A stretch of 54,308 bases of DNA from Flavobacteriales bacterium (GTDB lineage: Bacteria; Bacteroidota; Bacteroidia; Flavobacteriales_F; PHOS-HE28): positions 1-54,308 of the forward strand of contig JAGFIV010000042.1 of NCBI GenBank assembly GCA_024103275.1. Direction: 5' to 3'. Each line of letters opens with the position of its first letter. The first letter of the stretch is position 1. The notes beneath the pieces were generated by a model, which was not told the DNA's origin, made no database searches, and was given only the letters and a program-made list of their open reading frames with translations. This document shows positions 20,810 to 32,999 of the stretch, one piece after another. Position numbers and translations under genes: made by a program.

Positions 20810-20840
20810 TTCGCGGTTGTCTGGTTTTCAGTTGTCGGTT

Positions 20841-20946
20841 CTCAGTTCTCAGTTCTCAGTTGGTTGTTGCCAGTTGCTGCCGACTACGCCAGTCAGCTAC
20901 CAACTGAGAACTAACAACCAACAACCAACAACCAACAACCAACAAT
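20841..20946. repeat. heptamer-repeat inverted repeat between pyrF and DUF2851
   Basis: The left side repeats TTCTCAG (three times) and runs into GTTGGTTGTTG; the right side repeats AACAACC about four times. GTTCTCAGTTG (20852-20862) pairs perfectly with CAACTGAGAAC (20901-20911) across a 38-base loop. The same words occur in the gap at 24.9 kb. The block follows the pyrF stop, so a role in 3' end formation is possible. Confidence 0.55.
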
Positions 20947-24675: not shown

Positions 24676-24921
24676 ATGTCCAACAACGACATCCTGAAGA
24701 AACTCCGCGTGGCCTTGAAGCTGCGCGACACCGACATCGTGAAGATCCTGCGGCTGGTGGATTTCCACATGACGCTTCCCGAGGTGAACGCGCTGTTCCG
24801 CAAGGAGGACCACCCTAACTACAAAGAGGCCGGTGACCAGGTGCTGCGCAACTTCCTCAACGGCCTGGTGATCCATCTGCGCGGACCGATGCCACCGGGG
24901 AAGCAGGAGAGGAAGGGGTGA
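24676..24921 (+). CDS. single-domain DUF1456 (YehS-like) protein
   Basis: An 81-residue protein with one DUF1456 unit ('NNDILKKLRVALKLRD' to 'EAGDQVLRNFLNGLVI'). E. coli YehS has two such units in about 156 residues, so this is a half-length form; it reads as complete rather than broken because it has a clean start and stop. The charged C-terminus ('PMPPGKQERKG') is disordered. It follows the PspC gene by 7 bp. Function unknown. Confidence 0.8.
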   Translation: MSNNDILKKLRVALKLRDTDIVKILRLVDFHMTLPEVNALFRKEDHPNYKEAGDQVLRNFLNGLVIHLRGPMPPGKQERKG

Positions 24922-24930
24922 TGGTGGTGG

Positions 24931-25041
24931 GTTCTTAGTTCGTAGTTCTCAGTTCTCAGTTCTTAGTTCTTAGTTCTTAGTTCTCAGTTGGCAGGAGCAG
25001 TAGGCAGGAACTGACAACCAACAACCAACAACCAACAACAG
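24931..25041. repeat. heptamer-repeat block after DUF1456
   Basis: TTCTTAG / TTCTCAG / TTCGTAG words repeat about eight times in 24931-24990, followed by ACAACCA words repeated about four times in 25014-25041. The first set is nearly the complement in style of the second (GTTCTCAGTTG/CAACTGA type), as in the block at 20.8 kb. It lies directly after the stop codon at 24921. Confidence 0.55.
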
Positions 25042-25067
25042 GGAACCGACAACAGCCACCTGCACCC

Positions 25068-25293
25068 AGGGCTATCGCGTCCTCATTCATCAACGGTCAT
25101 GACTTCGGCAAAGGAGTAGGAACAGCAGGCCCAGCGTGCGTCCCTTGCTCCCCGGACCGCCGCTCGCTTTGGTCCGCCCCCTCGCCCTGAGCCCGCCGTT
25201 CGGCGGGCTCAGGGGGACAGGATCGCCGCACGCTGGGCCTGCTGTTCCTGCACATTCCCAGTACTGACGGGAGAAATTAGACGCGATAGCCCT
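25068..25293. repeat. 226-bp nested inverted repeat with three stems
   Basis: Outer 14-bp arms (25068-25081 and 25280-25293), middle 23-bp arms (25118-25140 and 25227-25249) and a central 14-bp hairpin (25185-25198 and 25201-25214, two-base loop) are all perfect by eye. A further small stem GGACC/GGTCC lies at 25154-25175. The segments between arms pair poorly. There is no open frame of note. The element fills most of the 417-bp gap between the DUF1456 and RmlD-like genes. It could be a MITE or a structured RNA; no transposase is present. Confidence 0.7.
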
Positions 25294-25324
25294 GCACCTG
25301 CACCTGCAACTGCCAACTATCCCC

Positions 25325-25332
25325 TAAGTTCG
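25325..25332 (+). promoter_or_regulatory. -7 promoter box TAAGTTCG for RmlD-like gene
   Basis: TAAGTTCG ends 6 bp before the ATG at 25339. It lies outside the nested inverted repeat. The spacing again implies a leaderless transcript. Confidence 0.5.
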
Positions 25333-25338
25333 CCTTCC

Positions 25339-26241
25339 ATGAAGATCCTGATCACGGGCAGCAACGGCCTGCTGGGCCAAAAGCTCATCGCCGCCCTGCG
25401 CCATGATCCCGAAGTGGAATTGATCGCCACCTCGCGCGGAAGTGACCGTACTGCGGATCCCTTGGGTGCCCGCTACCGCACCATGGATACCACCGACCGC
25501 GAACAGGTGGATGCGGTGATCGATGCGGTGCGGCCGGATGCGATCATCCACACGGCGGCCATGACCAACGTGGATGCCTGCGAACAGGATCCCGCCGCGT
25601 GCCGGCTGCAGAACGTGACGGCCACGCAACTCCTGGTGGATGCGGCCAAGCGCGCCGGCAGCCACTTCATCTTCCTCAGCACCGACTTCATCTTCGACGG
25701 GGAACACGGGCCCTACCGCGAGGAGGATGCCCCCGCGCCGCTGAGCATTTACGGCCACAGCAAGCTCGAAGGCGAGCGTATCGTGCAGGAAGCAGGCCTG
25801 GACCGTTGGGCCATCGCGCGCACCATCATCGTATACGGCATCGCGCCGGGCCTGAGCCGCAGCAACGTGGTGCTGTGGGCCAAGGGCGCCCTGGAAAAGG
25901 GAACGCCCATCAAGGTGGTGGACGACCAATGGCGCATGCCCACCTTGGCCGAGGACCTGGCCGACGGCTGCATCCGCATCGCAAAGCGCGGGGCCACCGG
26001 CATCTTCCATCTCAGCGGACCGGACGGCATGAGCATCCTGGAGCTGGTACAGCGCGTGGGCGCCTTCTTCAACTTGCCCACCGGGGCGGTGGCGCCCGTG
26101 AAGAGCGCCTCCCTGGGCCAGCCCGCCAAACGCCCGCCGCGCACGGGCTTCATCCTGGACAAGGCGCGCAGGGAACTGGGCTATCATCCCCGCAGCTTTG
26201 AGCAGGGGCTGGCCGTGCTGCGCAGCCAGTTGGCCACCTGA
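25339..26241 (+). CDS. RmlD-like SDR-family NAD(P)-dependent reductase
   Basis: A 300-residue extended short-chain dehydrogenase similar to dTDP-4-dehydrorhamnose reductase (RmlD). Seen: nucleotide-binding 'ILITGSNGLLGQKL' at the N-terminus, 'IIHTAAMTNVDACEQ', 'FLSTDFIFDGEHGPY', and the catalytic YGHSK (Tyr-x-x-x-Lys) motif near residue 138. The substrate is probably a nucleotide sugar, but no other rhamnose genes lie nearby, so dTDP-rhamnose synthesis is not certain. The ATG at 25339 has a promoter box 6 bp upstream. The ComEA-like gene follows 14 bp after its stop and is probably co-transcribed. Confidence 0.85.
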   Translation: MKILITGSNGLLGQKLIAALRHDPEVELIATSRGSDRTADPLGARYRTMDTTDREQVDAVIDAVRPDAIIHTAAMTNVDACEQDPAACRLQNVTATQLLVDAAKRAGSHFIFLSTDFIFDGEHGPYREEDAPAPLSIYGHSKLEGERIVQEAGLDRWAIARTIIVYGIAPGLSRSNVVLWAKGALEKGTPIKVVDDQWRMPTLAEDLADGCIRIAKRGATGIFHLSGPDGMSILELVQRVGAFFNLPTGAVAPVKSASLGQPAKRPPRTGFILDKARRELGYHPRSFEQGLAVLRSQLAT

Positions 26242-31109: not shown

Positions 31110-31182
31110 GCCAATGTAGCTCAGCTGGTAGAGCAGCTGATTTGTAATCAGCAGGTCGGGGGTTCGAGTCCCTTCATTGGCT
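31110..31182 (+). tRNA. tRNA-Thr (anticodon TGT)
   Basis: The acceptor arms GCCAATG/CATTGGC pair fully; the anticodon loop in CTGATTTGTAATCAG holds TGT, and the T arm has GTTCGAGTC. Length 73 with discriminator T; the CCA end is not encoded. First of four tRNA genes before tuf. Confidence 0.95.
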
Positions 31183-31197
31183 CCGTGAACGGACCAT

Positions 31198-31280
31198 GGG
31201 GAGATACCCAAGCGGCCAACGGGGGCAGACTGTAAATCTGCTGTCTTACGACTTCGTAGGTTCGAATCCTGCTCTCCCCA
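31198..31280 (+). tRNA. tRNA-Tyr (anticodon GTA)
   Basis: GGGGAGA/TCTCCCC acceptor stem, anticodon GTA in GCAGACTGTAAATCTGC, and a long variable arm (CTGTCTTACGACTTCGTAGG region) as expected for tRNA-Tyr. Length 83, no encoded CCA. Confidence 0.95.
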
Positions 31281-31335
31281 CGATGAACGGAGCCAATGAC
31301 CGGAATGGTTTCAACGACCGGTGTTGCAAGATCAA

Positions 31336-31408
31336 GCGGGAGTAGCTCAGTTGGTAGAGCATCAGCCTTCCAAGCTGAAAGTCGCGGGTTCGAGTCTCGT
31401 CTCCCGCT
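31336..31408 (+). tRNA. tRNA-Gly (anticodon TCC)
   Basis: GCGGGAG/CTCCCGC acceptor stem; CAGCCTTCCAAGCTG places TCC in the anticodon loop; T arm GTTCGAGTC. Length 73. Confidence 0.95.
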
Positions 31409-31455
31409 CTACCCCCCACTCCCCGCTTGCGGGGCGGGGGGCCAACGGCGCAAAG

Positions 31456-31527
<72 letters not shown>

Positions 31528-31634
31528 CAAGGCTCGAAGGCCTTTCAGGCCGGCCAGCGGCAAAAAGCACGTACAGTAATTAAAGGAACACCCCAACGAG
31601 TCAGTAAAAGAACAACACCAAACGATCGCCCCAC

Positions 31635-32822
<1,188 letters not shown>

Positions 32823-32846
32823 CCAAACACATGAAAAAGCAGGCAG

Positions 32847-32876
32847 GGCCGTCCCGCATTTGGCGGGACGGCCTTT
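32847..32876 (+). terminator. terminator after tuf
   Basis: GGCCGTCCCGC (32847-32857) pairs perfectly with GCGGGACGGCC (32863-32873), loop ATTTG, then TTT. It would end the tRNA-tuf transcript before tRNA-Trp, at least partly. Confidence 0.75.
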
Positions 32877-32911
32877 GCCGACGAAAGGGACACCAAGGAA
32901 ACCAGGAACGA

Positions 32912-32984
32912 ACGGGAGTAGCTCAATCGGTAGAGCGACGGTCTCCAAAACCGTAGGCTGCGGGTTCGATTCCTGCCTCCCGTG
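32912..32984 (+). tRNA. tRNA-Trp (anticodon CCA)
   Basis: ACGGGAG/CTCCCGT acceptor stem; ACGGTCTCCAAAACCGT places CCA in the anticodon loop. Length 73 with discriminator G; the next three bases are CCA, unlike the other four tRNAs. secE starts 15 bp downstream. Confidence 0.93.
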
Positions 32985-32999
32985 CCAATACAAACGACC

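Follow-up and report, generated by a model that had tools for sequence, protein, structure and literature searches.

An orphan ISAs1-type MITE in a Flavobacteriales genome and its probable promoter-locked insertion

Introduction

What is an element made of three nested perfect stems that enclose no gene, and what determined the place where it stands? Here we address this question for one such element in the window, by which we mean the whole 54,308-nucleotide stretch of Flavobacteriales DNA that was analysed. The initial annotation had offered three options, namely that the element is a MITE bounded by its outer arms as terminal repeats, that it encodes a structured non-coding RNA, or that it serves as a chromosome-organising site. 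The spacing to a promoter box described below, which lies outside the element, was absent from it.

Results

Boundaries and fold of the element

By comparing full, deleted and rearranged copies, we placed the element at positions 25067-25294 (228 bp), with sharp boundaries CAGGGCTATCGC...GCGATAGCCCTG. The three nested perfect stems seen earlier are present, but the extent of 226 bp first given to them fell one base short at each end (starting at 25068), because the shared terminal repeat takes in the leading C and the trailing G as well. Likewise, of the stem lengths of 14, 23 and 14 bp reported at that time, the middle and central ones were borne out, the former sitting within a 30-nt arm pair of 90% identity and the latter within a 17-nt pair of 94% identity, but the outer one is actually 15 bp long. 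The view that no gene is enclosed also held, with no ORF of at least 80 aa inside the element. The features of the locus are as follows.

24676-24921, + strand: DUF1456 gene, the upstream neighbour
25057-25066, + strand: left TSD copy CACCTGCACC, 10/10 identical to the right copy
25067-25294, + strand: MITE, one of about 19 genome copies
25067-25081, + strand: left TIR CAGGGCTATCGCGTC, 15-bp perfect inverted repeat, equal to the end of the ISAs1 IS of congener G004
25118-25140, + strand: left arm of the middle inverted repeat, 23 bp, perfect; the inner segment is missing from four 101-bp copies
25185-25214, + strand: central 14-bp perfect inverted repeat with a TT gap (arms 25185-25198 and 25201-25214), no T run after it
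25227-25249, - strand: right arm of the middle inverted repeat, 23 bp, perfect, from inverted-repeat comparison
25280-25294, - strand: right TIR, 15-bp perfect inverted repeat, equal to the end of the same G004 IS
25295-25304, + strand: right TSD copy CACCTGCACC, 10/10 identical to the left copy
25325-25332, + strand: predicted -7 promoter box TAAGTTCG, 6 bp ahead of the rmlD ATG; its first base lies 31 bp from the end of the MITE; kept in congener G002
25339-26241, + strand: RmlD-type dTDP-4-dehydrorhamnose reductase gene (rmlD), downstream of the targeted promoter; Pfam RmlD_sub_bind, 223 bits

RNA folding of positions 25060-25302 gave -145.3 kcal/mol, compared with -93.3 +/- 4.9 for shuffled sequences (z -10.7), and DNA folding of the opposite strand gave a z of -9.1. 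An Rfam search of the element returned no family match, and no promoter was detected inside it. An intrinsic terminator was considered and rejected, as no terminator-like site was found at the element and the central repeat has no trailing T run.

The element is multicopy and shares its ends with an ISAs1 IS

A copy count had been proposed earlier as a check, and in the window's own genome (3.58 Mb in 137 contigs, a fragmented assembly) it yielded about 19 copies: 13 full-length ones, the window copy included and the others at 91-96% identity, four deletion copies of 101 bp that all lack the inner stems, and two rearranged copies (on contigs C90 and C106). The companion check for flanking duplications was equally positive, with 10-bp TSDs on most copies and a 10/10 match at the window copy. 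Matching 10-bp flanks of their own are found in 11 copies, while four further matching flank pairs join different copies (L009/L013, L013/L019, L016/L022 and L016/L024), and such reciprocal TSDs point to recombination between copies or to chimeric assembly. We considered whether the 101-bp copies form a mobile sub-family and dropped this idea, since the sequences closest to them are full copies; they more likely arose by repeated slippage at CCCAG repeats (or by gene conversion, or through an assembly error), and that the same inner segment was lost repeatedly between these repeats fits ordinary palindrome instability. In copy L021 (G000:C90:97551-97774) the outer arms are flipped relative to the centre, as could result from recombination between, or conversion of, the middle inverted repeats.

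Congener G004 carries three ISs of 1216 bp, each with ends CAGGGCTATCGCGTCTTAA and a perfect 10-bp TSD, and the 15-bp MITE ends match the ends of this IS. Its 368-aa protein scored 371 bits against the NCBIfam ISAs1 transposase model NF033564 (cut-off 70); the only other matches were Pfam DDE_Tnp_1 and DDE_Tnp_1_assoc, and the protein did not classify as a Mutator-superfamily transposase. A similar 1218-bp element with the same TIR is present in another congener, G422. In the window genome no ISAs1 transposase was detectable, so that mobilisation there would be past or hidden by assembly gaps. The element thus has the hallmarks of a MITE, being short, non-coding and multicopy, with TSDs and with a TIR common to an autonomous ISAs1 element. 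Since it is multicopy and flanked by TSDs, its ends match those of the congener IS and its own genome is without the transposase, we classify it on sequence comparison as an orphan ISAs1-type MITE.

Two other origins were tried and rejected: derivation from the known IS by simple internal deletion, given that the common sequence is confined to the terminal 15-19 bp, and a phage or plasmid origin, for which there was no match. Other MITEs of congeners, mostly 225-258 bp long (225-333 bp across subfamilies), have the same TIR and unrelated interiors, most of which are again nested palindromes (L128, L130, L277, L274, L110, L112, L114, L133 and others).

An empty site in a sister species and uncompensated stem variation

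In G002, the closest congener found (RmlD 90% identical), the same gene pair and the same core promoter TATCCCCTAAGTTCGCCTTCCATG occur without the MITE, that is, as an empty site. In 6 of the 13 congener loci examined, a box of the TAnnTTTG/TTCG kind precedes the orthologous ATG by 12-14 bp, and several others of these loci carry near variants of it. With the copy number, the 10-bp TSDs, the TIR of the congener ISAs1 element and this empty site, the MITE option of the initial annotation, in which the outer arms are terminal repeats, is the one that stood.

Its other two options did not. A structured non-coding RNA or a chromosome-organising site would be in keeping with the very stable fold (z -10.7). 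However, the lack of an Rfam match, the flanking TSDs and the empty site in the congener speak against both, and the copies lie at scattered sites, which lends no support to an organising role. Moreover, the covariation that had been suggested as a check was absent within the family: among the 13 full copies none of 76 predicted pairs showed a compensatory change and many single-sided breaks were seen; in a sister subfamily, both partners had changed in 3 of 56 pairs, one of these lying within the TIR. In the absence of compensatory change nothing points to a selected RNA structure. We therefore rejected an RNA gene and give RNA or organising-site function next to no credence; judged from these alignments, the nested inner stems are best seen as passenger palindromes. 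The outcome that the initial annotation had named as adverse to its view, a single copy with stems varying uncompensated, was found in its second half, as the stems do vary in this way, but not in its first, the element being multicopy.

Insertions lie at a nearly fixed distance from predicted promoter boxes

In Flavobacterium johnsoniae the Bacteroidota -7 box TAnnTTTG occupies positions -12 to -5 (PMC6847099). Using this F. johnsoniae consensus, we read the flanks outward from the element ends and scored boxes out of 6 for 46 insertions in the genus, full ISs included, 38 of which have an intact TSD. In 33 of the 46 elements a box scoring at least 5/6 and pointing away from the element started 31, 32 or 33 bp from one end, compared with a mean of 1.06 at this score over the remaining 3-bp bins between 13 and 114 bp, of which the fullest, at 22-24 bp, held 5. 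Full-score boxes numbered 20 at 31-33 bp versus a mean of 0.15 in other bins. The subset with intact TSDs behaved alike (28/38 at a score of at least 5/6 and 16/38 at full score), and bins beyond 34 bp were nearly empty. The remaining 13 of the 46 lack a box with a clear score at 31-33 bp, in some cases because of chimeric flanks or a weaker motif. The binomial P is exceedingly small; since the elements of a single genome are related to one another, however, we rely on the bin contrast and not on the exponent. Single-ended cases, in which distances were counted by eye, agreed: L287 (33), L294 (33 and 32), L278 (33), L284 (31) and L135 (33).

We regard these boxes as predicted promoters on account of their motif, their position before genes and their conservation. 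Gene starts follow them, in one case that of a tRNA-Leu gene, and TAnnTTYG is rare in the window, with 16 occurrences on both strands of 54 kb. Taking the first T of the box as -12, the 10-bp target falls at about -43 to -34, and consequently the core promoter stays intact. A second small cluster of boxes was noticed 22-24 bp from the element (flanks of L009, L122 and L240), about one helical turn nearer than the main one.

The almost fixed distance of 31-33 bp upstream of promoter boxes is the reason why these elements and their parent transposon appear to find promoters instead of inserting at random, and we consider it very probable that the window element is a MITE with promoter-locked insertion. 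Retention of the copies as a regulatory module, such as an insulator or a spacer at the promoter, would also place them there, since the element separates the core promoter from everything upstream of about -43. Nevertheless, in the window's own genome the box lies on either side of the element (6 left and 9 right, the ends being symmetric and both orientations seen), the downstream genes are unrelated, and the rule is obeyed alike by full ISs and by MITE subfamilies that differ in their interiors, which makes this explanation improbable.

The spacing is neither a general outcome of survival nor, so far, a property of the whole family

Random insertion with survivors only at a promoter-sparing position could likewise be considered, as hits in genes or core promoters are harmful and survivors should therefore be intergenic. 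Any upstream distance would then be tolerated, yet the bins beyond 34 bp are nearly empty. Furthermore, we defined the ends of 10 IS3-family insertions from this genus by comparison between copies, and none of the 10 had a box at 31-33 bp (Fisher P 3e-5). With this control and the narrow spacing we rejected survivor selection as the cause of the spacing, and random insertion followed by survival is very improbable.

As a second control we took 13 distant ISAs1 insertions, whose transposases are 37-44% identical where measured and which have CAGG-type ends and 9-11-bp TSDs. Only 1 of the 13 fitted the spacing, and this one lies in an AT-rich genome; promoter targeting throughout the ISAs1 family is thus not supported, though promoter motifs in those genomes may differ. 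From 0/10 for IS3 and 1/13 for distant ISAs1, we conclude that the spacing is neither a general survival outcome nor, so far, a whole-family property. Within the genus, TACCTTTG lies about 34 bp, counted by eye, from the right end of a second ISAs1 (L153, G032:C219), whose ends are different (CAGGGCAAACGCATCAAAAG); given this case, a further ISAs1 lineage of the genus may also keep the spacing.

How the transposase may find its target

We propose that an ISAs1-family transposase, acting in trans, would move the non-autonomous MITE by recognising its CAGGGCTATCGCGTC ends and would duplicate 10 bp upon insertion. This transposase lineage would insert the element at the upstream border of sigma-A promoters, with the target at about -43 to -34, and we infer that it is guided to promoters during target capture. 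Guidance would most likely be via promoter-bound RNA polymerase (sigma or alpha-CTD) or via DNA shaped by the polymerase. That the ISAs1 lineage in Bacteroidota finds its targets via promoter-bound RNA polymerase, placing both full ISs and MITEs at this position of active promoters, is a tentative proposal to which we give nearly, but not quite, an even chance.

The main rival is that the transposase itself reads TAnnTTTG, some 21-23 bp beyond the TSD, with no role for RNA polymerase. The aligned flanks fit such reading, as they conserve just the box and the following C, and neither the TSD nor the -33 region. However, a 368-aa transposase reading a sequence two turns away is unusual, and all aligned sites lie just upstream of a gene start, although in-gene insertions could have been purged. 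Hence we hold direct reading of the box to be rather unlikely, though still the strongest of the alternatives.

Discussion

In the open-access literature we found no reports of promoter targeting by ISAs1, or of promoter-locked insertion at Bacteroidota promoters. The element resembles the ISAs1 family and its MITE derivatives in its CAGGG-starting terminal repeats, its 10-bp TSD and the matching IS in the genus, and differs in that it shares only the terminal 15-19 bp with the IS and in a promoter spacing that was not seen as a rule in the 13 distant insertions.

The closest parallel in behaviour is provided by TnGBS, ISLre2 (p-MULT 3) and ISKra4 (p-MULT 4), which have Mutator-superfamily DDE transposases and target sites upstream of sigma-A promoters, TnGBS inserting 15-17 bp upstream of the -35 box; in these types the asymmetry of the ends sets the orientation, and near-symmetric ends go both ways (PMC3942029). 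The common traits are the fixed distance upstream of a sigma-A promoter and, here, symmetric ends with both orientations. On the other hand, the superfamily is Mutator there and ISAs1 here, the promoter type and the phylum are other ones, and so is the offset, the -35 box being 15-17 bp away in p-MULT and the -7 box 31-33 bp away here, where the TSD abuts the -33 region. The MITE and IS described here thus work like p-MULT elements but are not one of them.

Among short repeats, BrickBuilt, MITE239 and MITEPgRS of Porphyromonas gingivalis are likewise intergenic Bacteroidota MITEs with IS-matched TIRs, but they have ends of the IS5-family type and variable or absent TSDs, and fixed promoter spacing is not reported there (PMC4596501). 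Correia elements of Neisseria are also short, palindromic and mobile repeats that frequently lie directly upstream of genes, but Correia subtypes bring their own promoters (PMC10969869), whereas the MITE here leaves the host promoter intact.

If promoter-fixed insertion has arisen in an ISAs1 lineage as well, with a different promoter type and offset, it would suggest a convergent safe-harbour strategy, in which DNA is added beside a gene while gene and core promoter remain unbroken. Target choice can be tested directly, with an IS of 1.2 kb, a substrate of 228 bp and a landmark of 8 bp. In uncultured Flavobacteriales, elements of the family pinpoint promoters with an error of one or two bases and, if guidance by polymerase is true, their insertion sites would amount to a natural, base-resolved polymerase footprint.

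Two further features of the window were noted. Paired heptanucleotide arrays, GTTCTTA/GTTCTCA followed by AACCAAC/ACAACCA, occur in two intergenic regions (24931-24989, 25014-25039, 20816-20862 and 20909-20945), and a similar tract also adjoins the empty site in G002. Five tRNA genes (Thr, Tyr, Gly, Thr and Trp) lie at 31110-32987, all on the + strand.
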